Assembly: GCF_900143535.1 (NCBI RefSeq)
Contig: NZ_FRFA01000019.1
Span: 1 to 64,000 of the forward strand
Direction of reading: 5' to 3'
DNA length: 64,000 bases
Source: Tateyamaria sp. Alg231-49
Lineage (GTDB): Bacteria > Pseudomonadota > Alphaproteobacteria > Rhodobacterales > Rhodobacteraceae
A program made the position numbers and the translations under genes. Below, piece by piece: positions 6,266 through 60,918 of the stretch; the first letter of the stretch is position 1, and every line of letters starts with the position of its first letter. The notes under the pieces are model-generated. The model did not search any database, was not told where the DNA came from, and saw nothing but the letters and a program-made list of their open reading frames with translations.

Positions 6266-7072
6266 ATGCTCGTCCTTTTGCTTATCATCGTTGTTTTGGG
6301 TGTGATCGGCGCACTTTACGTCCGTCGCGTGCGCCATAGGCGTGCGCTGCTGAGTGCGCCTTTGACCGACCGGGAGTGGGACATCCTGTTTGATGCCGTG
6401 CCTTTGCTGCGCCGCATGCCTGTCAAGTTTCGCGCAGCGTTCGAGGGCAAGGTCAATCTGTTCCTCGACCAAGTGGAATTTCAGGGCTGCAACGGGCTGG
6501 AGGTTACCGAAGACATGGAACTGTCCGTTGCCGCGCAGGCCTGCCTGCTCGTGGTGAATACGGATCGCTGGTACGACAAGCTGACCACCGTGTTGATGTA
6601 CCCGGCGGCCTTCAAATCCAAGCAGGTGCGCCGAGACGGATATGTCGTGAGCGAGGCCGAAGTGGTGCGGACCGGCGAAAGCTGGAGCAGGGGGCCAGTG
6701 ATCCTGTCATGGAGAGACGCACAAATCGGGGCAGAACAGGATCGCAGCGGGCACAATGTGGTTTTGCACGAGTTTGCCCATCAACTCGACGATATGTCCG
6801 GGCGCACGAACGGCATCCCGGTACTTGAGCCGGGGCAGGCCTTTGCAACATGGGAGGCCGTGTTCGTGGACGCCTTCAACCGCCATGTAGATGATGTAGA
6901 GAATGGTCGCAGAACGGCTGTTGACGCTTACGGCGCTACCAATCACCAGGAGTACTTTGCCGTCGTCATTGAGCTCTTTTACGAACGGCCTGCCGTGCTG
7001 AAGCGTGCGGAACCCAAGGTGTACGAACAGATTTCCAAACTGTTGCGACTTGATCCGGTGACATGGGGCTGA
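6266..7072 (+). CDS. mtfA: MtfA-like zinc peptidase (DUF980)
   Basis: The 268-residue protein begins with one hydrophobic segment (LVLLLIIVVLGVIGALYV) and then a soluble domain with a zinc-peptidase HEFAH motif at residues 168-172, followed by QLDDMSGRTNGIP. This matches the MtfA/DUF980 family. In E. coli, MtfA interacts with the glucose-PTS repressor Mlc; here the physiological partner is unknown. The N-terminal anchor is longer than in E. coli MtfA and would place the peptidase at the membrane. It stands alone between the Lrp pair and an aminotransferase. Confidence 0.88.
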   Translation: MLVLLLIIVVLGVIGALYVRRVRHRRALLSAPLTDREWDILFDAVPLLRRMPVKFRAAFEGKVNLFLDQVEFQGCNGLEVTEDMELSVAAQACLLVVNTDRWYDKLTTVLMYPAAFKSKQVRRDGYVVSEAEVVRTGESWSRGPVILSWRDAQIGAEQDRSGHNVVLHEFAHQLDDMSGRTNGIPVLEPGQAFATWEAVFVDAFNRHVDDVENGRRTAVDAYGATNHQEYFAVVIELFYERPAVLKRAEPKVYEQISKLLRLDPVTWG

Positions 7073-50092: not shown

Positions 50093-52954
50093 GTGTCACT
50101 CTTCATTCTAGTCGCGTTGCCCTTTTTGGGGGCTTTGCTGCCCGGTCTCATGAATTCGGCCGGGCGCTCCGCGTGTGCGGGTGTGACATTCACCGTATCG
50201 CTCACGGCTTTCATCGGATTGCTGACCAATCTGCCCAGTGTGCTGGCCGGAGAAGTGGTGACCGCCCGCGTCGACTGGATGCCAGTCTTGGGGCTGAACT
50301 TTACCCTGATGCTGGACGGGCTTGGGTTCTTCTTTGCTTTGCTGATCCTTGGGATCGGTTTGTTGATCATCGCCTATGGGCGCAACTACCTCAGCCGCGA
50401 AGACAACATGGGCCAGTTCTTTACCTATCTGCTGCTCTTTCAGGGCGCGATGGTGGGGATCGTTCTGTCTGATAACGTATTGCTTTTGCTTATTTTCTGG
50501 GAACTGACATCGCTGTCATCCTTCCTGCTTATCGGCTATTGGAAACACCTGCCCGAAGGGCGACAGGGCGCACGAATGGCCCTCACTGTGACCGGTATGG
50601 GCGGGCTTGCCATGATCGGCGGTATGCTGATCCTCGGCCAGATCGTGGGCAGCTATGACCTGTCCGTGATCCTGCAAAACCGTGAACTCATTCAGGCCGA
50701 CCCGCTTTATCTCCCGGCTCTGATCCTGATCTTGCTGGGCTGCTTCACCAAGTCTGCGCAGTTCCCGTTCCACTTCTGGCTGCCGCACGCAATGGCGGCG
50801 CCGACCCCTGTGTCGGCCTATTTGCACTCGGCCACGATGGTGAAAGCGGGCATTTTCCTGATGGCCCGCATGTGGCCGGTTTTGTCCGGCACGCCGGAAT
50901 GGTTCGTGATCGTCACGACAGCCGGTCTCGTCACCATGTGTATCGGGGCGGTGATTGCGCTGTTCAAACACGACCTCAAGGCGCTTTTGGCCTTTTCGAC
51001 CGTCAGTCATTTGGGTTTGATCACCATGCTTTTGGGCACGGGTACTGCCTTTGGTGCGATGGCGGCGATGTTCCACATCCTGAACCACGCGACGTTCAAG
51101 GCTGCGCTGTTTATGTCCGCAGGGATTATCGATCACGAGGCACACACGCGCGATATTCGCCGTCTGGGTGGTTTGCGCACGCTGATGCCAGTGACCTTCG
51201 TGATAGCGACGCTTGCGGCCCTATCCATGGCGGGCATTCCTCTTCTGAACGGGTTCCTGTCCAAGGAAATGATGCTGGAAGAGGCGAACCACACCGTTCT
51301 GTTCAACGTGCCCTGGCTGGTTCCTGTGCTGGCGACAGTCGGATCGGTGTTTTCAGCCGCCTACTGTTTCCGCCTGATCGGGCATACGTTCTTTGGCCCT
51401 GTGCGCGATGACTATCCGGCCAAGCCGCATGATCCTCCGGCCGGTCTGTGGATGCCTCCTGCAATTTTGGTGGTGTTGGTGGTTGTGATCGGGGTGGCTC
51501 CGTTTCTGGCCGAGCCCTTTGTCAAACTGGTCACGGCCTCTGTTCTGGGGGGCGAGGCGGAAGTGCCCAAAGCCTATTTCAAGATATGGCACGGCCTTGT
51601 GCCCGCGCTTTACATGTCCATCATCGCCACGGTGGGCGGCCTGATCCTTCTGATGGTGTTCAAGCCGGCCTTGCGTATCTGGGATGGCGCCCCACGCCCG
51701 GAAGCCAAAGTAATCTTCGAGGCGATTGTCGAGGCTGCGGCTACGCTGGCGCAAAAGCTGATCCTGCCGCTGCACAATGGCGCGTTCTCGCGCTATGCCG
51801 CCATCGGGTCGGTCGCCATCATCGGGGCAGGCTTTCACGCTTGGAGTACGGGGCAAGTCGGCCCCGCTACCCGCACGGCACAAGCCGCAGACCCTGTGGC
51901 CATTGCGGGCTGGGGTATGCTTGTGGCGGCGACGGTTGGTCTTGTGTTCCTACACCGCAATCGCCTGTTGTCGCTGATCCTAATCGGCATCGTTGGGTTG
52001 ATGGTTTCCATCGGCTTTGTCTTCTTCAGCGCGCCTGATCTGGCTATGACGCAGTTCACGGTCGAAGTGGTGACAATCATCCTGCTGCTGCTTGCGCTCA
52101 ACTTCCTGCCGAAAACGACGCCGGTCGAAAGCTCGGTCTTGCGGCGCGTCCGCGATGTGGCTGTGGCTGTTGCGGGCGGTGTTGCGACATTCGGGATCGC
52201 CTATCACTTTCTGCTGCGCGATGCGGTCACGACGCCTATTTCCGAATTCCACCTTGCCAATTCTTACAAGGGCGGTGGCGGCACAAACGTCGTCAACGTG
52301 ATCCTTGTCGATTTCCGGGGCTTTGACACTTACGGCGAGATTATCGTGCTCGGCATTGCGGCCCTGCTGATCTACGCGCTGACGCAATCCCTGCTGGGTG
52401 GACCAGTGCGGGCGCGTTTGCTGAACCGCAAACCGGATCAGCCGCGGGCAGGGGATATGCACCCGATGATGATGGTGGTCCTGACGCGGGTGATCATGCC
52501 GGTCGTGATGATGGTCGGTTTTTACATCTTCCTGCGCGGGCATAATGAACCCGGCGGAGGCTTCATCGCAGGGCTTATCGTGTCGATCGGCGTGGTGATG
52601 CAGTACATGGCGAGCGGGTTCAACTGGGCGTCGGCGCGCTTGCACTACCCCTATCACGGGGTGATCGGCGCAGGCGTGCTGGTTGCGGGCCTTACAGGCA
52701 TTGGGTCGTGGTTCGTGAACAAACCGTTCCTCACTTCGGACTTTACGTATGTGCGCATCCCGCCCTTCGAGAAATTCGAGCTGGCCACCGCAGCGCTGTT
52801 TGATGTCGGCGTGTTCCTTGCCGTTGTCGGCGCCGTGATGCTGTCGCTTGAAAGCTTCTCGCGTTTGGCGCGCCGCGCCCACGAACCAGAGACGGAACAC
52901 CCCATGGACATCGACCCCTCGCGGGATGTCGAAGATGCGAAAGGGGCCGTGTAA
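50093..52954 (+). CDS. mrpA: Mrp/Mnh Na+(K+)/H+ antiporter subunit A fused to subunit B
   Basis: The 953-residue protein is the largest subunit of the multicomponent cation/proton antiporter. Its N-terminal 500 residues are NADH-dehydrogenase subunit-L-like, with NVLLLLIFWELTSLSSFLLIGYW cut to its core WELTSLSSFL, and HSATMVKAGIFL. A middle MrpA-C part follows, and the last 150 residues are an MrpB domain (YIFLRGHNEPGGGFIAGLI). The A-B fusion is the arrangement of rhizobial phaAB. The start is GTG at 50093. It leads a six-gene operon with overlaps or 1-bp gaps. Likely roles are pH and sodium homeostasis. Confidence 0.95.
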   Translation: MSLFILVALPFLGALLPGLMNSAGRSACAGVTFTVSLTAFIGLLTNLPSVLAGEVVTARVDWMPVLGLNFTLMLDGLGFFFALLILGIGLLIIAYGRNYLSREDNMGQFFTYLLLFQGAMVGIVLSDNVLLLLIFWELTSLSSFLLIGYWKHLPEGRQGARMALTVTGMGGLAMIGGMLILGQIVGSYDLSVILQNRELIQADPLYLPALILILLGCFTKSAQFPFHFWLPHAMAAPTPVSAYLHSATMVKAGIFLMARMWPVLSGTPEWFVIVTTAGLVTMCIGAVIALFKHDLKALLAFSTVSHLGLITMLLGTGTAFGAMAAMFHILNHATFKAALFMSAGIIDHEAHTRDIRRLGGLRTLMPVTFVIATLAALSMAGIPLLNGFLSKEMMLEEANHTVLFNVPWLVPVLATVGSVFSAAYCFRLIGHTFFGPVRDDYPAKPHDPPAGLWMPPAILVVLVVVIGVAPFLAEPFVKLVTASVLGGEAEVPKAYFKIWHGLVPALYMSIIATVGGLILLMVFKPALRIWDGAPRPEAKVIFEAIVEAAATLAQKLILPLHNGAFSRYAAIGSVAIIGAGFHAWSTGQVGPATRTAQAADPVAIAGWGMLVAATVGLVFLHRNRLLSLILIGIVGLMVSIGFVFFSAPDLAMTQFTVEVVTIILLLLALNFLPKTTPVESSVLRRVRDVAVAVAGGVATFGIAYHFLLRDAVTTPISEFHLANSYKGGGGTNVVNVILVDFRGFDTYGEIIVLGIAALLIYALTQSLLGGPVRARLLNRKPDQPRAGDMHPMMMVVLTRVIMPVVMMVGFYIFLRGHNEPGGGFIAGLIVSIGVVMQYMASGFNWASARLHYPYHGVIGAGVLVAGLTGIGSWFVNKPFLTSDFTYVRIPPFEKFELATAALFDVGVFLAVVGAVMLSLESFSRLARRAHEPETEHPMDIDPSRDVEDAKGAV

Positions 52955-52955
52955 G

Positions 52956-53291
52956 ATGGAACTGCTTGTCGCCTCTGCCATCGGTATCATGACAGCCGCC
53001 GGGCTTTATCTGCTGCTGCGCCTGCGCACGTTTCCGGTGATCCTTGGGATTTCACTGCTGACCTATGCGGTGAACGTTTTCCTATTTGCCTCTGGGCGCC
53101 TGACGATTGGGGCACCCCCGGTCTTGCGCGACGATATGACCGTTTATTCTGATCCTCTGCCGCAGGCGTTGGTGCTGACGGCCATCGTGATCTCGTTCGG
53201 TATGACGGCGGTGGTCGTGATGATCGGTCTTGGTGCCTTTCTTGGATCAAACGACGATCACGTCGATGATCAGCCGGAGGACACACAATGA
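52956..53291 (+). CDS. mrpC: Mrp antiporter subunit C
   Basis: The 111-residue protein is NuoK-like with three membrane helices. It shows ASAIGIMTAAGLYLLLRLRT, LLTYAVNVFLF and a third helix with LPQALVLTAIVISFGMTAVV, the signature shared with NuoK and MnhC. It starts one base after the mrpA stop and overlaps mrpD by 4 bp. A frame open further upstream lies inside mrpA and was not used. Confidence 0.94.
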   Translation: MELLVASAIGIMTAAGLYLLLRLRTFPVILGISLLTYAVNVFLFASGRLTIGAPPVLRDDMTVYSDPLPQALVLTAIVISFGMTAVVVMIGLGAFLGSNDDHVDDQPEDTQ

Positions 53292-54835
53292 CCCACTGGT
53301 TGATTGCACCCGTTGTTCTACCTGCAATGCTGGCGCCGTTTATCGTGCTGGCCGCACGCTATCACATTGGCATCCAGCGCGCGTTTTCTGTGGCTGGGGT
53401 TGTGGCGCTGATCGTGATTTCAGCTGCACTGGCGTGGAATGCCTCTGACGGCACGGTTGAGATTTACCAGCTTGGGGATTGGGCCGCACCATTCGGGATC
53501 ATCCTAGTGGGGGACAGCCTTTCGACACTGATGGTTCTGCTCACGGCGGTGCTGGCCTTGTGCGTTCTGCTTTATGCCATCGGGTCAGAGTGGGATGACA
53601 GGGGCACGCACTTCCATGCCTTGTTCCAGTTCCAGTTGATGGGGATCATGGGCGCGTTTCTGACAGGCGATTTGTTCAACCTCTTTGTTTTCTTCGAAGT
53701 GCTGTTGATCGCGTCCTATGGCCTGATGATCCATGCCGGCGGCACAGCGCGACTGCGGGCAGGGGTGCAGTATGTGCTGTTCAACCTGATTGGCTCGACC
53801 TTGTTCCTGTTCGCGCTTGGCTCAATCTACGCCGAGACCGGGACCCTCAACATGGCGGACCTCGCGGCGCGCGTGGCGCTTATTGATCCGGCGGAAACCG
53901 TTGGGATACGGGTCGCCTCTGTCCTGCTGCTTCTGGTCTTTGCGATCAAGGCTGCTGTGGTGCCGCTGCACTTCTGGTTGCCCTCCAGCTATGCCGAGGC
54001 ACCGGCCCCGGTCGCGGCCCTGTTTGCGATTATGACCAAAGTGGGCGGCTACGCGATCATCCGCGTCTACACATTGATCTTCCCGCCGGATGTGGAGGTC
54101 ACGTCAGGCCTGCACGATCTGTGGTTGCTGCCCGCCGCACTTGCGTCACTGGCGATCGGGATGATTGGGGTGCTGGCGGCCAAACGGCTGGACCGCCTCG
54201 TGGCTTTCGCGGTCATCGGGTCCATGGCGATGGTGATGGTTTCGATCGCACTCTTTACTCCGACTGGCATCGCAGCAGCCCTGTACTACATCGTGCATTC
54301 GACCCTTGCGGCGGCGGCCTTGTTCCTGATTGCGGACCTTGTGCGCACGGGGCGGGGCAACGTCGAACTGACTGCGCAAGCGCCAATGGCAGGCGCTGCG
54401 CTTACGGCTGCGTTGTTCTTTATCGGCGCGATTGCGATGGCGGGTCTACCGCCCTTGTCGGGGTTCATTGGCAAGCTCTTGGTGCTGGATGCTGCGTTTG
54501 ACACGGACATGATGGTGTGGGTCTGGATCATCGTTCTCTGTTCCAGCCTGATCAGTATCCTCGGCTTTGCACGCGCAGGCAGTGTTCTGTTCTGGAAGGC
54601 GCACAGTGTCACCCATTCAGAAGATGATTTGGTCATGCCGCGCCCCACGACTCTGTCCTATGTGGCAGTCGGCGCATTGATCGGTTTGTTGACCCTGCAC
54701 ACGGTCTTTGCGGGTCAGGTACACGGGTACACCACACGGATTGCGGCCACGCTGTTCGAACCAACCGCTTATAGCAATGCGGTGCTGAATACGCCCGGAA
54801 AACTCTCCAAACCCAAGAAAGAGGAGGAGCACTGA
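53288..54835 (+). CDS. mrpD: Mrp antiporter subunit D
   Basis: The 515-residue protein is NuoN/NuoM-like with about fourteen membrane segments. LTGDLFNLFVFFEVLLIASY carries the conserved glutamate of the proton path, and AAVVPLHFWLPSSYAEAPAP carries the lysine and the trans-helix motif. It overlaps mrpC by 4 bp and is followed by mrpE after one base. Function depends on the whole complex. Confidence 0.95.
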   Translation: MTHWLIAPVVLPAMLAPFIVLAARYHIGIQRAFSVAGVVALIVISAALAWNASDGTVEIYQLGDWAAPFGIILVGDSLSTLMVLLTAVLALCVLLYAIGSEWDDRGTHFHALFQFQLMGIMGAFLTGDLFNLFVFFEVLLIASYGLMIHAGGTARLRAGVQYVLFNLIGSTLFLFALGSIYAETGTLNMADLAARVALIDPAETVGIRVASVLLLLVFAIKAAVVPLHFWLPSSYAEAPAPVAALFAIMTKVGGYAIIRVYTLIFPPDVEVTSGLHDLWLLPAALASLAIGMIGVLAAKRLDRLVAFAVIGSMAMVMVSIALFTPTGIAAALYYIVHSTLAAAALFLIADLVRTGRGNVELTAQAPMAGAALTAALFFIGAIAMAGLPPLSGFIGKLLVLDAAFDTDMMVWVWIIVLCSSLISILGFARAGSVLFWKAHSVTHSEDDLVMPRPTTLSYVAVGALIGLLTLHTVFAGQVHGYTTRIAATLFEPTAYSNAVLNTPGKLSKPKKEEEH

Positions 54836-54836
54836 T

Positions 54837-55340
54837 ATGGCCCGTCGCGCCTTTTTCTGGCTGCTGCCACACCCTTTTCTGACCATCCTTTTGGCGGTGG
54901 TGTGGATCCTGCTGCAAAACGAGTTTTCCGCAGGCATGGCTGTCTTTGGTTTGATCCTTGGAATCCTGATCCCGTGGGGCACGTCGATCTGGTGGCCCGA
55001 CACGCCAAGTGGATTTCATGTGGGCAGGATGTTCAGCTATTCGCTGATGGTGATTTGGGACATCATCAAGGCCAATATCGAGGTGGCGTGGATTGTTCTG
55101 TCGGTGTCCAATGACAAGTTGAAACCTGCATGGATCGTGGTGCCTCTTGATTTGGTGCAGCCCGAAGCGATCACCATTTTGGCAGGCACCATCACTCTGA
55201 CACCCGGCACCGTTTCGGCGGACCTGTCGGACGAAGGCCACAGCCTGCTGGTCCACGTGCTGCACACCGATGACCCGGATTCGGTGCGGGATGAGATCAA
55301 GACCCGCTATGAGGCCCGCCTGAAGGAGATTTTCACATGA
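54837..55340 (+). CDS. mrpE: Mrp antiporter subunit E
   Basis: The 167-residue protein has N-terminal membrane segments (FLTILLAVVWILLQNEFSAG), and a conserved cytoplasmic part with ITLTPGTVSADLSDEGHSLL and VHVLHTDD, as in MnhE/MrpE. It overlaps mrpF by 4 bp. MrpE is often less essential for transport but needed for full complex assembly. Confidence 0.94.
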   Translation: MARRAFFWLLPHPFLTILLAVVWILLQNEFSAGMAVFGLILGILIPWGTSIWWPDTPSGFHVGRMFSYSLMVIWDIIKANIEVAWIVLSVSNDKLKPAWIVVPLDLVQPEAITILAGTITLTPGTVSADLSDEGHSLLVHVLHTDDPDSVRDEIKTRYEARLKEIFT

Positions 55341-55624
55341 GTTCCGCGACTGGCATCATAGACATCGCCGTGATGATCACCTTTTGCGCACTGGCATTGG
55401 GTCAGACCCTTTCGATGGTCCGCCTTGTGTTGGGTCCCAGCTATGGCGACCGCATCCTTGCGCTGGATACGATGGTGATCAATTCGCTGGGCCTTGTTGT
55501 TGTGTTGGGCATTCATCAAGGCGTGCAGATCTATTTCGAGGTTACGCTATTGATCGCCATGCTTGGCTTTGTCTCGACCGTTGCGCTGGCGCGGTTCCTG
55601 CTGCGGGGGGACATCATCGAATGA
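55337..55624 (+). CDS. mrpF: Mrp antiporter subunit F
   Basis: The 95-residue protein has three membrane helices. The central RLVLGPSYGDRILALDTM is the MnhF signature, carrying the D-R-x-x-A-x-D motif. It overlaps mrpE and mrpG by 4 bp each, so translation is coupled along the operon. Confidence 0.94.
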   Translation: MSSATGIIDIAVMITFCALALGQTLSMVRLVLGPSYGDRILALDTMVINSLGLVVVLGIHQGVQIYFEVTLLIAMLGFVSTVALARFLLRGDIIE

Positions 55625-56010
55625 CCGGACAGATCATCGCGACATATGCCGCCGCCCTTAGCCTTTTGATCGGGTCAGGATTCATCATGGTTGGGGTCAT
55701 TGGCCTGTTGAAATTCAACGACCCGATGACCCGCCTGCATGCGCCGACCAAGGTGGGTACAATCGGGATCGGGATGTTGCTACTTGCGTCACTTTTGCAC
55801 TCTTATGCGATTGGTGGCTCATCCATGCACGAACTGCTGATTATGGCGTTCCTCTTTGTGACGGCGCCTGTATCCGCGAATTTCATCGCCAAGGTGAACA
55901 TTCATCAGCGCAGTTGCTCCACGCCTCCTGAACCACCAGAGGACGACACGTGGTCCACGTTGAATTCCCCGGAAGGCGACGTTGAGGACACAGCCTCGCA
56001 AAAGGGCTAG
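55621..56010 (+). CDS. mrpG: Mrp antiporter subunit G
   Basis: The 129-residue protein has three membrane helices and the MnhG pattern IGLLKFNDPMTRLHAPTKVG, then TIGIGMLL. The last 30 residues are a hydrophilic, acidic and proline-rich tail beyond the usual domain. The ATG overlaps the mrpF stop. No terminator is obvious; a weak GCCC/GGGC pairing lies just downstream. Confidence 0.93.
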   Translation: MTGQIIATYAAALSLLIGSGFIMVGVIGLLKFNDPMTRLHAPTKVGTIGIGMLLLASLLHSYAIGGSSMHELLIMAFLFVTAPVSANFIAKVNIHQRSCSTPPEPPEDDTWSTLNSPEGDVEDTASQKG

Positions 56011-56164
56011 TGGCAGGCATGTACGCCCTATTTGTTGTATTGGGCGCCAAATCCTGAGCAAAAGCGGGGCATGTGCCTAAAGATTGGGCGGATTCGCGTG
56101 GTCTGTATGGCTGTATCCCGCAAATTCATTGTGCATAGCCCATTACCGCACGCAGTCTAAACAT

Positions 56165-56274
56165 GCAGGATGTCTAGGGTTCCGCCTCATGTCAGAGGGT
56201 CAGGTCCAAGAGACATCGCTGGCCGGGCGCACCCGGTTGGTACACGGCGGGGCAAAATCCCGGGAGGCTACTGC
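56165..56274 (+). ncRNA. Guanidine-I riboswitch aptamer (ykkC RNA)
   Basis: The region has the conserved guanidine-I elements in order: CTAGGGTTCCG (56174-56184), GGTCCAAGAG (56203-56212, family GGTCCGAGAG), ACACGG (56242-56247), AAAA (56254-56257) and CCCGGGAGG (56259-56267). A P1 closing helix can form between GCAG (56165-56168) and CTGC (56271-56274). The hairpin between GGCCGGGCGC and CCCGGTTGG fits P2/P3. It lies 73 bp before an ABC-transporter binding-protein gene, as expected for a guanidine-responsive leader. Confidence 0.95.
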
Positions 56275-56346: not shown

Positions 56347-57399
56347 ATGAAGAAATTTGCAACACTCACCTCTGCGGCGCTTTTGCTGGCCAGTACGGCC
56401 ATGGCGGATGGACATGTCAAAACAGAATTCAAGATGGCGTGGACCATCTATGTGGGCTGGATGCCATGGGGCTATCTGGAAGACAGCGGCATCATGGACA
56501 AATGGGCCGCCAAATATGAAATCGACGTCGAGATCGTGCAGATCAACGACTATATCGAAGGGATCAACCAGTTCACGGCAGGCGCATTTGATGCAGTAGG
56601 GGCCACCAACATGGACGCGCTGTCGATCCCGGCGGGTGGCGGTGTGGACACCACGACACTGATTGTGGGCGATTATTCAAACGGCAATGACGCGATCATT
56701 ATCAAGGGCGAAGGCGATGTGTCATCGCTCGCGGGGAAAACGGTCAACCTCGTTGAATTGTCTGTATCTCACTACCTTCTGGCCCGCGCCCTTGCCAGCG
56801 CTGGTCTGTCCGAACGTGACCTTGAAGGGCTTGTGAACACTTCGGATGCCGACATGATCGCAGCCTATGCGACGGACGACGTGACACATCTGGTCACATG
56901 GAACCCGATGGCCGCCGAAATCCTTGCCGATCCGGTCGCCAACAGCGTCTATGACAGCTCGGACATTCCCGGCGAAATCGTGGACATCATGTGGGCCAAC
57001 ACCGAAGTGCTGGAAGCCAATCCAGCGTTCGGGAAGGCTGTCGCAGGGGCTTGGTTCGAAGTGATGGAACTGATGGCAGCAGGAGATGAAGAGGTGCTGA
57101 CAGCCATGGCCGAAGCGTCGGGTACCGACCTTGCAGGGTACAAAGCACAGCTTGCCGCGACCGAGATGTTTTATACCCCGGCCGAGGCTGTCGCCTTCAC
57201 CGAATCCGAAGAGCTAAAGACAACGATGGTCAGTGTGGCCGAGTTCCTCTTTGAGAACGGGATACTGGGCGAGGGCGCTCCATCGCCAGACTTTGTTGGT
57301 GTCGAATACCCAGATGGGACGATCACCGGAGATTCCAGCAACGTCAAACTGCGTTTCGACACCACGTATATGCAAATGGCCGCCGACGGCGCGCTGTGA
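56347..57399 (+). CDS. ABC transporter substrate-binding protein, probable guanidine importer
   Basis: The 350-residue protein has a signal peptide (MKKFATLTSAALLLASTAMA) and a nitrate/sulfonate/taurine-type binding domain. The lobe motif is KMAWTIYVGWMPWGYLEDSG, and aromatic residues suitable for cation binding are plentiful. DYIEGINQFTAGAFDAVGAT and the following lobes fit the family. It is the first gene after the guanidine-I riboswitch, so the ligand is probably guanidinium. A GC-rich stem (57408-57435) lies between it and the permease gene. Confidence 0.88.
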   Translation: MKKFATLTSAALLLASTAMADGHVKTEFKMAWTIYVGWMPWGYLEDSGIMDKWAAKYEIDVEIVQINDYIEGINQFTAGAFDAVGATNMDALSIPAGGGVDTTTLIVGDYSNGNDAIIIKGEGDVSSLAGKTVNLVELSVSHYLLARALASAGLSERDLEGLVNTSDADMIAAYATDDVTHLVTWNPMAAEILADPVANSVYDSSDIPGEIVDIMWANTEVLEANPAFGKAVAGAWFEVMELMAAGDEEVLTAMAEASGTDLAGYKAQLAATEMFYTPAEAVAFTESEELKTTMVSVAEFLFENGILGEGAPSPDFVGVEYPDGTITGDSSNVKLRFDTTYMQMAADGAL

Positions 57400-57441: not shown

Positions 57442-58254
57442 ATGCGATTGATCAACATCACTCCTGGCCGAGCACTGACGGCATTCCTCGTGCTGCTGCC
57501 CTTTGCGCTTGTGCTGATCGCCTATGCGATTGGATCGGACATTCGGCTGACGGCGAACCCGTCAGACAAGCTGCTGCCCGCCCTCAGCACCATTGGCGAC
57601 ACAATGGTGCGTCTGACAACCGAAGGCGACAGGCGCACTGGTGATATATTGTTCTGGGTGGACACGTGGGCAAGCCTTAAACGGCTTGGCATTGGGATCG
57701 GAATTTCGGCGGCGCTTGGCCTGCTCTTTGGCTTGGCGATCGGCTTGCTGCCACTGGTGCGCAGCACGCTCAAACAGTTTGTTGCGGTCTTGTCGATGAT
57801 TCCGCCGCTGGCGCTGCTGCCCATTCTTTTCATTGTGTTTGGCCTTGGCGAGCTTTCCAAGGTGGTGCTGATTGTCGTGGGGACGCTGCCCTTTATCATT
57901 CGTGATCTTAGCCAGCGCACCATCGAAATCCCGCAAGAACTGCTGGTCAAGGCACAGACCCTTGGGGCCTCCACATGGGTGATCGCCATCCGCGTGGCCT
58001 TGCCGCAAATCATGCCGCGTCTCATTCAGGCAGTCCGCCTGTCGCTGGGCCCCGCTTGGCTGTTCCTGATCGCGGCCGAGGCCATTGCGTCAGACGCAGG
58101 CCTTGGCTACCGCATCTTTCTGGTGCGCCGCTATCTCGCCATGGATGTGATCCTGACCTACGTGATCTGGATCACACTGTTGCCCTTCCTCATCGGCTGG
58201 GGGCTGCGCTACGCCGCGCGCCGCTTCTTCCCTTGGGCGGAGGAGGGGTTGTGA
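57442..58254 (+). CDS. ABC transporter permease, probable guanidine importer
   Basis: The 270-residue protein has about six membrane helices and a BPD_transp_1 fold. The EAA loop reads TLGASTWVIAIRVALPQIMP. It is of the SsuC/TauC-like branch. Its stop overlaps the ATPase start (GTGA). The position between the riboswitch-controlled binding protein and the ATPase defines the importer; specificity is inferred from that. Confidence 0.92.
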   Translation: MRLINITPGRALTAFLVLLPFALVLIAYAIGSDIRLTANPSDKLLPALSTIGDTMVRLTTEGDRRTGDILFWVDTWASLKRLGIGIGISAALGLLFGLAIGLLPLVRSTLKQFVAVLSMIPPLALLPILFIVFGLGELSKVVLIVVGTLPFIIRDLSQRTIEIPQELLVKAQTLGASTWVIAIRVALPQIMPRLIQAVRLSLGPAWLFLIAAEAIASDAGLGYRIFLVRRYLAMDVILTYVIWITLLPFLIGWGLRYAARRFFPWAEEGL

Positions 58255-59018
58255 GCTTCGTCTCTGTCAAAAACGTATTCCAAACCTATGGCACCCGGCC
58301 CATCATCGAACGGGTAAACGTCGAGGTGGAAGAGGGCGAGTTCATCTCCATCGTTGGGGCGTCTGGCTGTGGTAAGTCCACCTTTCTGCGCCTGCTTTTG
58401 GCGCAAGAACGACCCACACGCGGTGAAATCAGCATTGCTGGCGCGCCGCCGGCGCGCGAACCGGGCCTCGACCGGGGTATCGTCTTTCAGCGCTACTCCG
58501 TTTTCCCTCACATGAGCATCCGCGACAACATTGTGGCCGGCGAGTCGTTTCGCCGGGGGTGGGGCCGGTTCTGGGGCGCAGAGCGCAAGGCGGCACAGGC
58601 CCGCGCGGATGAGACACTGGCGCGGATCGGGTTGGATCATGTGGCCGACCAATACCCGGCAACCTTGTCGGGCGGCATGCAGCAACGCCTTGCCATCGGA
58701 CAGGCCCTTGTTGCACGCCCGCGCGTGCTGCTGCTTGATGAACCCTTTGGCGCGCTGGACCCCGGCACGCGCATCGCCATGCACGATTTTCTGACGGACC
58801 TGCGGGCCGAGACCGGCATGACCGTATTCATGGTCACCCACGATCTGGAAGAAGCGTTCAAGCTGGGCGACCGGGTTCTGGTCTTTGATAAACCCCGCTG
58901 GGACCCGCAGGACCCCAATCTGAACGGGGCCACAATCACCTATGATTTTGACGCCCGCAACGGCGGCATCCCGTTTCAAACCTTGAAGGAGGAAACCCAT
59001 GTTCTTGAAGAACACTGA
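58251..59018 (+). CDS. ABC transporter ATP-binding protein, probable guanidine importer
   Basis: The 255-residue ATPase has Walker A GASGCGKST, Q-loop FQRYSVFPHM, signature LSGGMQQR, Walker B VLLLDEPFGALD and the switch histidine in MVTHDLEE. It starts at GTG inside the permease stop. Downstream, its 3' end overlaps the hydrolase gene by 20 bp. The C-terminal extension after residue 215 (WDPQDPNLNGATITYDFDA) is typical of the guanidine/urea-type transporters. Confidence 0.93.
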   Translation: MSFVSVKNVFQTYGTRPIIERVNVEVEEGEFISIVGASGCGKSTFLRLLLAQERPTRGEISIAGAPPAREPGLDRGIVFQRYSVFPHMSIRDNIVAGESFRRGWGRFWGAERKAAQARADETLARIGLDHVADQYPATLSGGMQQRLAIGQALVARPRVLLLDEPFGALDPGTRIAMHDFLTDLRAETGMTVFMVTHDLEEAFKLGDRVLVFDKPRWDPQDPNLNGATITYDFDARNGGIPFQTLKEETHVLEEH

Positions 59019-60243
59019 GCGGACACGCTCGCACCATCCGCACGATCATTCGAGCACAGAGGCGCGACACCACCACCCGGATCTGACCAAACTGCGCGGT
59101 TGGAAGGCGATGCAGGCCGAGGGCGATTTGCCCGAGACGGGCTGGGATCAGGAGCGCAAATGGGCGTTGCGCATGGGCTTGACCGGTGCGGATAGCATCG
59201 AAGACAAGTCGATCCCAACCTTTGCGCGCGGCGAGTTGCCCCACTACGCAGGCATCAACACTTTTCTGAAAGCGCCTTATGCAGAGGACGTCACCGAGGT
59301 GCAGCACTATGATGCCACCGTGCTGGGTATTCCTTTTGACGGAGGCACGACCTACCGCGCAGGCACGCGGTTCGGCCCGCAGGGCGTGCGCAAAATCTCA
59401 GCGCTTTATACGCCTTACAACTATGAAATGGCGGTGGACCTGCGCGAACAGATGACCCTGTGTGATGCGGGCGATGTGTTCACTATCCCGGCCAATATCG
59501 AAAAGACGTTCGATCAGATCACCCGCGGGGTGAGCCATGTGGCCTCGTCCGGATCGCTGCCCATCATGATCGGCGGGGATCACTCGATTGGGTTCCCGTG
59601 CGTGCGCGGCATAGCGCAGTGCACATCGAAGAAAATCGGGATCATTCACTTTGATCGGCATGCAGATATTCAAGAGAAAGATCTGGATGAGCGCATGCAC
59701 ACAACCCCATGGTTCCATGCGACAAACATGGACAACGTGCCTGCCAAAAACCTTGTGCAGATCGGTATTGGTGGCTGGCAGGTTCCGCGCGAGGCGGTGA
59801 AGGTTGCACGCGAACGCGAGACCAACATCATCACCATGGGTGACATGGAAAAGATGGGCATCGATAAGACCGTCGAGATGGCGCTGGAAATGGCGTGGGA
59901 CGGCGTAGATATGGTGTACCTGTCCTTTGACATCGACAGCATTGATTGCGGATTTGTGCCTAGAACCGGTTGGCCCGAACCGGGTGGCTTCCTACCACGC
60001 GAAGCGCTCGCCTTGGTCTCCAAGGTCGCGGCCGAAGGGATCTGCGGCATGGAACTGGTTGAGGTCGCTCCGCCCTATGACCAATCCGAAATCACCGCCC
60101 TCATGGGCACGCGCGTGATTGTGGATGTTCTGGGCAGTCTCGTTGCAAGCGGCAAGATGGGCGATCACAAGCGTCACATGGACAAGCCCGTCGAAATCCC
60201 CCACGGCGAGTTTGAAGGAAAGCGGTGGTCCAATGCCACATGA
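58999..60243 (+). CDS. gdmH: Guanidine hydrolase-like enzyme (arginase/agmatinase superfamily)
   Basis: The 414-residue enzyme has the ureohydrolase metal-site motifs GGDHS (192-196), FDRHAD (218-223) and SFDIDS (309-314). It departs from agmatinases: FDRHAD replaces FDAHxD, and IDCGFVPRTGWPEPGG follows SFDIDS. These are features of the nickel guanidine hydrolase GdmH (Synechocystis Sll1077 type), which splits guanidine to urea and ammonia. The N-terminal 30 residues are His-rich (RSHHPHDHSST, ARHHHPD), suggesting metal binding. AAGGAGGA precedes the ATG. Its place after a guanidine-I riboswitch and importer strongly supports this over agmatinase. Confidence 0.9.
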   Translation: MFLKNTERTRSHHPHDHSSTEARHHHPDLTKLRGWKAMQAEGDLPETGWDQERKWALRMGLTGADSIEDKSIPTFARGELPHYAGINTFLKAPYAEDVTEVQHYDATVLGIPFDGGTTYRAGTRFGPQGVRKISALYTPYNYEMAVDLREQMTLCDAGDVFTIPANIEKTFDQITRGVSHVASSGSLPIMIGGDHSIGFPCVRGIAQCTSKKIGIIHFDRHADIQEKDLDERMHTTPWFHATNMDNVPAKNLVQIGIGGWQVPREAVKVARERETNIITMGDMEKMGIDKTVEMALEMAWDGVDMVYLSFDIDSIDCGFVPRTGWPEPGGFLPREALALVSKVAAEGICGMELVEVAPPYDQSEITALMGTRVIVDVLGSLVASGKMGDHKRHMDKPVEIPHGEFEGKRWSNAT

Positions 60244-60724
60244 TCACGCGCATGGCGCGCACAGCCATTCCCACGACCATCAGCACCACCATGACTACGG
60301 GCACAGCCACACGCATGGTCCAGGACATAACCACGACCACCCGGATCACATGCATTCCCACATGCATGCTGTTGATGATGCGGCAGAATTACAGGTCCTG
60401 ACCGACCAGTTTATCGACGGCTTCGTGGCTGCCAAGGACAAGATGTCTTACCTGCGTATCGCCGGTGTCCCGCTGGAAATTGACGCCCCCGGCGGCGGTC
60501 CCAAGATGAAACTGGTCGATGTCACTCTGACCACCGAATGGCAGGTGGGCACGGCTTCACCGTCCTTTGGTTCGCGCGAGCTTAGCTACATGCCATATCC
60601 GGGCGAGATGGTGACCGAGCGTACCAATATGGGTCTCATCTACGTCTCGCTCGAGACCAAGCAGGTCACGGACCTGCGAAGCTTTATTCAAAACCACCCT
60701 GCATCCGGAAAGGATTATGTATGA
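60233..60724 (+). CDS. His-rich protein, candidate nickel carrier for the guanidine hydrolase
   Basis: The 163-residue protein has 20 histidines in its first 45 residues (patterns such as HSHSHDHQHHH and HGPGHNHDHPDH). A non-His domain of about 115 residues follows (FIDGFVAAKDKMSYLRIAGV, then KMKLVDVTLTTEWQVG), which I do not recognise. It overlaps the hydrolase gene by 11 bp and the next gene by 4 bp, so it is made with them. Other GdmH enzymes need HypA/HypB-like helpers; none is here, so this may be the local nickel chaperone. A metal store or zinc-binding role is possible. Confidence 0.78.
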   Translation: MPHDHAHGAHSHSHDHQHHHDYGHSHTHGPGHNHDHPDHMHSHMHAVDDAAELQVLTDQFIDGFVAAKDKMSYLRIAGVPLEIDAPGGGPKMKLVDVTLTTEWQVGTASPSFGSRELSYMPYPGEMVTERTNMGLIYVSLETKQVTDLRSFIQNHPASGKDYV

Positions 60725-60918
60725 AACCGATGCTCACTTTGATTGCCGCCGTCGCAACCACACCCGCGCTGGCACACCCTTCTCTGGCGCCGCATGCGCA
60801 TAACGAGGCAACAGCGTTTTCACCGATGGCTGCGATTGTCGCCTTGGCACTGGTCGGGGCCGTCGCGATTGCCGCGCCCCATCTGCGAAACGCTATGATG
60901 CGTGCGACAGCGCGCTAA
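60721..60918 (+). CDS. Small membrane protein at the end of the guanidine operon
   Basis: The 65-residue protein has an N-terminal signal-like segment (MKPMLTLIAAVATTPALA), a short histidine-bearing stretch (HPSLAPHAHNEA), and one membrane helix (MAAIVALALVGAVAIAA). It starts inside the stop of the His-rich protein gene. The spacing of His suggests a metal-facing periplasmic loop. The family is unknown to me. Its 3' end overlaps uxuA, which is convergent, by 26 bp. Confidence 0.68.
   Translation: MKPMLTLIAAVATTPALAHPSLAPHAHNEATAFSPMAAIVALALVGAVAIAAPHLRNAMMRATAR

Follow-up and report, generated by a model that had tools for sequence, protein, structure and literature searches.

How does a nickel-dependent guanidine hydrolase obtain its metal in bacteria where the helper proteins described for such enzymes are mostly missing? 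This question is raised by a stretch of 64,000 nucleotides (nt) from Tateyamaria sp. Alg231-49 (contig NZ_FRFA01000019.1, positions 1-64,000; hereafter the window), in which the gene for a guanidine hydrolase of the GdmH type is followed by one for a 163-residue protein rich in histidine (His). GdmH and metformin hydrolase are described as nickel enzymes with helpers of the HypA/HypB type in the parts of PMC11399263, PMC11271267, PMC12186494, and PMC8390497 that deal with them. An initial annotation of the window had proposed that two small proteins stand in place of HypA/HypB and serve a different nickel route. Here we report that the 163-residue protein accompanies GdmH so strictly that it almost certainly works on or with the enzyme; we consider it reasonably probable that it is a dedicated maturation factor of alphaproteobacterial GdmH, one that would bind nickel and load it. 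The features at the center of this argument are as follows.

58999..60243, forward strand: guanidine hydrolase, GdmH type; best relatives in the Protein Data Bank (PDB) are GdmH and guanidinase
59029..59082, forward strand: His-bearing N-terminal extension of GdmH, residues 11-28, SHHP...HHHPD
60233..60724, forward strand: 163-residue His-rich protein, linked to GdmH; proposed dedicated nickel chaperone or loading factor
60233..60367, forward strand: His-rich tail of the 163-residue protein, residues 1-45, with a conserved GHNH...HxHSHM end
60371..60706, forward strand: core domain of the 163-residue protein, residues 47-158, no known family; AlphaFold2 model confident except at about residues 101-130

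The evidence that carries the argument is co-occurrence. A scan of named genome contigs found 190 stretches encoding relatives of the 163-residue protein, so its open reading frame (ORF) is more than chance; figures for named loci rest on 80 of these relatives, and the named loci overlap the unlabelled genome sample, so the two are not independent. Among 244 Rhodobacterales genomes (thresholds of E <=0.001 for the core and E <=1e-100 for GdmH), the core is found in 23 and GdmH in the identical 23, and the two genes are adjacent in 23/23. Across 337 alphaproteobacteria (GdmH threshold of E <=1e-90), 12 genomes have the core, 11 have GdmH, and 11 have both, with adjacency in all 10 beyond the window genome. 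A phylum sample yielded GdmH in 7/398 genomes; three of these are new (G652, G724, and G910), and in each a diverged core lies beside GdmH. Overall, the core is kept in 36/36 distinct GdmH genomes. GdmH is upstream of the core in 79/80 named loci—the remaining locus, L052, is cut by a contig end—and another gene separates the two in one of the 79, L034. The intervening gene (L034:6586-6969, +) is of the carboxymuconolactone decarboxylase family (PF02627) and overlaps the gdmH stop codon.

The sole clear exception is the twelfth core among the 337 alphaproteobacteria, that of G367 (L143:7103-7360, +). It has no start codon and is about 26 residues short at the N-terminus, there is no GdmH within the 17 kb read around it, and it is apparently the relic of a lost guanidine hydrolase locus. 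In the phylum sample the core profile matched 6/299 genomes, namely five known carriers and G819; the G819 match (16-21 bits; residues 411-479 at 16.3 bits) is a weak piece of a long other frame, so it was counted as chance, and G819 was rejected as a GdmH-free carrier. The initial annotation had allowed that the family might occur independently of gdmH; in the 244- and 337-genome scans, where the two coincide in 23 and 11 genomes, no intact member does so. Linkage is also seen on a plasmid: in Sinorhizobium fredii NGR234 pNGR234b, the one record examined of five S. fredii plasmid records with GdmH, the core is beside GdmH with permease and ATPase genes upstream, and the seven neighbours scanned include no HypA/HypB.

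The GdmH genes of most loci also share their operon with an importer, which invites the reading that the 163-residue protein serves uptake and not hydrolysis. The remaining features of the locus in the window are given below.

56163..56268, forward strand: guanidine-I riboswitch aptamer RF00442, ahead of the operon (cmscan 77.9 bits, gathering cut-off 63)
56347..57399, forward strand: substrate-binding protein of an ATP-binding cassette (ABC) importer, TIGR03427 (NCBIfam 500.4 bits, cut-off 333.9)
57442..58254, forward strand: ABC importer permease, PF00528
58251..59018, forward strand: ABC importer ATPase, PF00005
60721..60918, forward strand: 65-residue protein, a coupled ORF with a signal-peptide-like segment and one hydrophobic segment

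The order is therefore riboswitch, binding protein, permease, ATPase, gdmH, 163-residue protein gene, and 65-residue protein gene. The two last ORFs had been described as lying directly after the hydrolase and coupled to it, and their overlaps bear this out: the start of the 163-residue ORF overlaps the gdmH stop by 11 nt, and the start of the 65-residue ORF overlaps the next stop by 4 nt, as ATGA. Many other loci overlap likewise; in L085, by contrast, the spacer separating gdmH from the His-rich gene contains a long inverted repeat (about 6790-6870, recognised by eye), which may reduce expression of the gene 3' of it. The RF00442 riboswitch is also present in 9/10 named homologous loci searched, and was not found in L076. 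On the 5' side of the riboswitch, the ORFs at 50093-56010 (+) resemble, in their translations, an operon for a multi-subunit Mrp-type Na+/H+ antiporter.

The NCBIfam label of TIGR03427 is 'putative urea ABC transporter', and guanidine is probably the substrate. If the 163-residue protein served this importer, whether in guanidine or metal uptake, the two should travel together, and in most loci they do: of the 80 named loci, 73 have a strong match to the binding protein, 75 to the permease, and 77 to the ATPase. (Contig ends truncate four of the seven loci that have no binding protein, but not L038, L046, or L093.) However, the gene distribution contradicts this reading. The importer binding protein is over its cut-off in 11/67 Rhodobacterales genomes, ten of which also have GdmH and the core, while the eleventh, G024, has the importer beside urea carboxylase without GdmH and without the core. 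Conversely, G652 has GdmH and the core, and the 19 kb read there holds no close match to the importer binding protein or permease. The distribution in G024 and G652 indicates that the 163-residue protein follows the hydrolase, not the importer, and the importer was rejected as partner on these two genomes. Additionally, inspection of the 163-residue protein by eye revealed neither a signal peptide nor a membrane segment, and we give the importer reading scarcely any credence. The G024 locus (L209:2564-10200, -) joins the TIGR03427 importer to urea carboxylase TIGR02712, and this genome probably uses the guanidine carboxylase route.

Is the partner truly GdmH? The nearest solved chains to the window hydrolase are Synechocystis GdmH (7esr/7oi1, 546.8 bits) and Nitrospira inopinata guanidinase (9fek, 536.1 bits), while the next PDB chain, a guanidinobutyrase, reaches only 166.5 bits. 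The hydrolase is also under both agmatinase NCBIfam cut-offs, so that by sequence it is a GdmH/guanidinase and not an agmatinase, and nickel-dependent guanidine hydrolysis is what its type would predict. The initial annotation had described its N-terminus as His-rich; there are indeed 7 His in the first 30 residues. The motif HHP[DNS] of this extension occurs in 90/90 intact alphaproteobacterial GdmH sequences (HHPDL in 78, HHPDF in 8, HHPNF in 3, and HHPSY in 1), a count that leaves out one shortened sequence, L098. Of four actinobacterial GdmH sequences, three are without HHP[DNSE] and one has HHPER. Aligned to the PDB chains of the Synechocystis and N. inopinata enzymes, the window hydrolase matches only past the HHPD region, so those N-termini are not visible in the alignments.

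If GdmH has a partner, are the expected helpers really missing? Pfam and NCBIfam matches in the operon include no hypA or hypB, as originally noted, and the 163- and 65-residue proteins have no match to PF01155 or TIGR00073. HypA and HypB were searched genome-wide in 21 of the 23 GdmH carriers (G200 and G228 were left out). HypA has no match in the window genome and is over its cut-off in 4/20 other carriers, with a fifth match below cut-off; HypB is over cut-off in 4/21 carriers, the same four, which leaves 17/21 with neither. The phrase 'in place of HypA/HypB' therefore describes most carriers tested, genome-wide, but not the four that have both. A NiFe hydrogenase large-subunit gene is present in 3/3 HypA/HypB loci fetched (the fourth, G031, was left out).

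Weaker matches to the HypB model, of UreG strength, occur in all 21 carriers. In the window genome—the only one in which UreG identity was checked—the best of these falls on ureG of a ureC-ureE-ureF-ureG cluster. GdmH might then take its nickel from UreE/UreG, the 163-residue protein being a mere adaptor or dispensable; both the urease operon of the window genome and the UreG-strength matches in 21/21 carriers are in keeping with this. Such a route, however, leaves unexplained why the core is present in all 36 GdmH genomes but missing from the rest of the genomes sampled, and we regard it as improbable.

What kind of protein is so tightly linked to the GdmH gene? Its tail has 20 His in residues 1-45, exactly as first described, with a single His afterwards and no cysteine (Cys) anywhere. 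Across the 80 named loci the His count of the tail varies from 6 to 27, while HN[HR] is present in 79/80 and [HQ][LMIF]H[ST]H in 77/80. In contrast to the variable tail the core is constant: in 17 aligned sequences, the invariant columns are F, D, L, L, G, P, Y, P, and Y. A constant core without invariant His or Cys, together with a variable tail, fits a docking domain that bears a metal-collecting tail. Over 77 loci the core evolves faster than GdmH (mean differences of 0.31 and 0.11, respectively), and the ratio of nonsynonymous to synonymous substitution rates (dN/dS) is low—0.025-0.089 between the window and nine near homologues, two further pairs being saturated, with a median of 0.20 and a maximum of 0.67 over 1335 closer pairs—which places the core under purifying selection.

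The 163-residue protein matched no Pfam or NCBIfam family, zinc-uptake families (an identity that the initial annotation had considered) included. The 17 aligned core sequences, of which six share just 22-27% identity with the window core, matched no Pfam family either, the core matched no PHROGs family, and its profile found no chain among PDB sequences up to E 10. A single-query PDB search with the 163-residue protein (E up to 10) gave three matches, the best of which (E 0.027) is C5-Zn1-HEHE-1 and spans residues 12-71, i.e., much of the tail; known-family identity was dropped after these searches. Structure prediction had been suggested for the C-terminal domain, and AlphaFold2 models the core as helix-helix-strand-strand-strand-helix, with a predicted local distance difference test score of >=90 in 71/163 residues (63/117 for the core alone). 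Foldseek, run with the full-length model and with the core alone, returned no match at E <=0.001; the COMM domain and a cystatin-like fold recurred as neighbours and were set aside as insignificant (best COMM-protein E 0.57 and 0.53). A search for viral relatives gave 5 pattern matches, none of them confirmed. We found no publication describing such a protein beside GdmH in a search that mostly did not extend to subscription literature.

The strict linkage to GdmH, the HHP[DNS] motif of the enzyme, and the general lack of HypA/HypB form the basis of our reading: since the core is found with GdmH in every alphaproteobacterium examined that has the enzyme and the helpers are mostly missing, the 163-residue protein probably loads nickel. 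Its N-terminal His tail, probably disordered, would collect the metal, presumably Ni2+, and its core would recognise apo-GdmH, probably docking at or near the HHPD-bearing N-terminal extension. The metal may then be handed directly to the di-metal site of GdmH. The 163-residue protein, without a recognisable nucleotide-binding domain, would thus do alone the job of GhaA/GhaB, which are of the HypA/HypB type, in Synechocystis. The different nickel route first suggested for GdmH stands in part: the linkage and the lack of HypA/HypB in 17/21 carriers speak for it, whereas nickel delivery itself is a matter of interpretation and some tails are nearly His-free.

Several observations weigh against nickel loading by the 163-residue protein. 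Distant alphaproteobacterial members keep the core with tails that are short (L111 and L112) or nearly His-free (L113), which excludes bulk nickel storage as the essential function; the core itself has no invariant set of metal ligands, His or Cys, in the 17 aligned sequences; and the mirror-tree correlation between core and GdmH is only r = 0.52, a value uncorrected for the species tree. UreE, UreF, and UreG of the window genome could serve GdmH. In plasmid records, the stretches of 14-17 kb read around four actinobacterial GdmH genes contain no core, and the family accordingly looks alphaproteobacterial, within a search that did not take in cyanobacterial and Nitrospira GdmH. The comammox guanidinase has no known nickel chaperone in the relevant text of PMC11410670 (comammox was not searched here for the core), and, as excerpted from PMC11271267, E. 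coli extracts showed activity of the metformin hydrolase MetCaCb although no chaperones were co-expressed, so loading does not always depend on a chaperone. In the same account MetAB had no effect in E. coli extracts, yet its knockout lost growth on metformin.

The same variability of the tail could mean that GdmH has in this protein a structural or regulatory subunit—a stabiliser, cap, or modulator—with the tail as a secondary nickel buffer or a protection from excess metal. A constant core whose tail has between 6 and 27 His and is almost lost in L113, the lack of an invariant metal ligand set in the core, and the strict one-to-one gene linkage would all suit a subunit. However, N. inopinata guanidinase made in E. 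coli is reported as an active homohexamer resembling Synechocystis GdmH, without such a subunit (PMC11410670, in part). Moreover, most members at named loci retain the HN[HR] and HxHSH-type motifs, and HypA/HypB are missing in most carriers tested; on balance, we think a subunit unlikely.

The choice of metal must also be considered. His-rich tails bind several transition metals, so the protein could handle zinc, manganese, or copper, or detoxify metals beside GdmH. The N. inopinata guanidinase in fact held one nickel and one manganese per subunit, according to the part of PMC11410670 on its metals. We nevertheless judge another metal to be very unlikely, as no metal-uptake family was matched in Pfam or NCBIfam and the linkage is to an enzyme of a nickel type under a guanidine riboswitch. 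Nickel loading by the 163-residue protein remains the reading that we prefer.

The 65-residue protein raises a separate question: is it a second helper of GdmH? By eye it comprises a signal-peptide-like segment, HPSLAPHAH, and then one hydrophobic stretch, which agrees with its description as a membrane protein with a His-bearing segment, and its predicted mature N-terminal residue is His, residue 19 (cleavage judged by eye). An ORF of this kind directly follows the core gene in 37/80 named loci when no His filter is applied, with 36 ATGA overlaps, and in 36/36 of these ATGA-coupled relatives an A/S-H junction lies at the expected cleavage site, again judged by eye. A stricter filter, which misses many true cases including the 65-residue protein of the window, found 17 such ORFs next to the core in 1.07 Mb of loci, 15 of them His-first, and 38 elsewhere, 0 of them His-first. 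Similar small proteins lie directly 3' of hupL in 3/3 hydrogenase loci fetched. These hupL-following proteins, from Rhodobacterales, have 57-61 residues, a signal-peptide-like start, one membrane pass, and an N-terminal His (L182:12894-13078, -; L183 from 2567, +; L184 from 13407, -).

Presence in 37/80 loci and in hydrogenase operons means that GdmH does not require proteins of the 65-residue kind, nor are these specific to it. The predicted mature N-terminal His and the hupL neighbours suggest that the 65-residue protein is probably nickel-related; as a candidate nickel helper of GdmH it is the weaker case of the two, a real coupled ORF but an optional one, with similar proteins in hydrogenase operons. 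Where present, it probably binds metal through its N-terminal His on the outer side of the inner membrane, and its parallels, a small sample, suggest nickel capture at the membrane. A 73-residue protein of the same plan (L147:1111-1332, +) lies inside a urease operon just upstream of a GdmH operon, flanked by genes that we take to be ureA-like and ureB-like. The same scan showed no such small protein in the urease locus of the window genome, L185; in locus L146 the urease cluster is incomplete.

Two known groups of proteins resemble the 65-residue protein. DUF6732 (PF20506) proteins are also small; their signal-peptide-like start is followed by A-H-x-G-H, they have one hydrophobic segment, and 7/26 aligned proteins of the 65-residue kind touch DUF6732 at E up to 1 (best 1.6e-6); membership of the window protein was rejected at 10.7 bits against a cut-off of 27. 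DUF6732 is over its cut-off in 10/31 genomes, at places other than GdmH loci, and no tested urease or hydrogenase gene was found in the 3-9 kb around the DUF6732 genes examined. The second group is secreted: in the sections of PMC12537917 that describe them, secreted proteins with a mature N-terminal His include metal-binding domains on HupE/UreJ-2 permeases, among them Ang-1 from a Rhodobacteraceae bacterium, fused to a HupE/UreJ-2 permease domain. The 65-residue protein is likewise predicted to expose a mature N-terminal His by a membrane anchor, but has neither the folded anglerase domain nor the permease of those proteins. The window genome also encodes a HupE/UreJ-type protein (L210:1018-2052, +; 24.1 bits against a cut-off of 23) with a predicted mature N-terminal His, which resembles the published Ang-1-HupE/UreJ-2 plan.

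A broader scenario is possible, though we regard it as doubtful in its entirety: alphaproteobacteria would have swapped the two-protein, GTPase-assisted HypA/HypB system for one small protein of a new domain family that works without nucleotide, has been inherited with GdmH throughout the class, and passes nickel from its His tail to the HHPD extension of the enzyme, and would have added His-first, one-pass proteins as outer nickel antennae at GdmH, NiFe hydrogenase, and one urease.

Why does this matter? PMC11410670, in the portion on this point, calls it unclear how the guanidine hydrolase of comammox bacteria is supplied with nickel when HypA/HypB are lacking. For alphaproteobacteria, a single gene, that of the 163-residue protein, is now a concrete candidate for the answer; its partner is clear, HHPD is a possible contact motif, and named isolates carry it. 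If our reading is true, a new domain family would join the nickel-loading factors, and those who produce active guanidine hydrolases in E. coli would have a practical helper. A family labelled 'hypothetical protein' in two plasmid records also gains a testable function.

Among the closest known systems is GhaA/GhaB of Synechocystis, whose genes likewise share the operon of this enzyme as accessories, controlled by a riboswitch of that class, as far as the consulted parts of PMC12186494, PMC8390497, and PMC11271267 describe it. In contrast, the 163-residue protein is one small protein with no HypA/HypB match, no nucleotide-binding domain found, and no Cys. A close functional analogue is UreE, which also joins a constant folded core to a His-rich tail of variable length; that tail is reported, in the passages of PMC13044922 that treat it, to add nickel capacity and yet to be removable. 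However, the tail of the 163-residue protein is N-terminal and that of UreE C-terminal, the core has no match to PF02814/PF05194 and no conserved metal-binding His, and the AlphaFold2 model has no significant PDB match. Since tail position, core sequence, and core ligands all differ, the 163-residue protein is not a UreE. Proteins of the Hpn kind are small, His-rich, and nickel-binding, and are linked to nickel enzymes; the 163-residue protein differs in that its His stretch is joined to a conserved core, and this core follows one enzyme.

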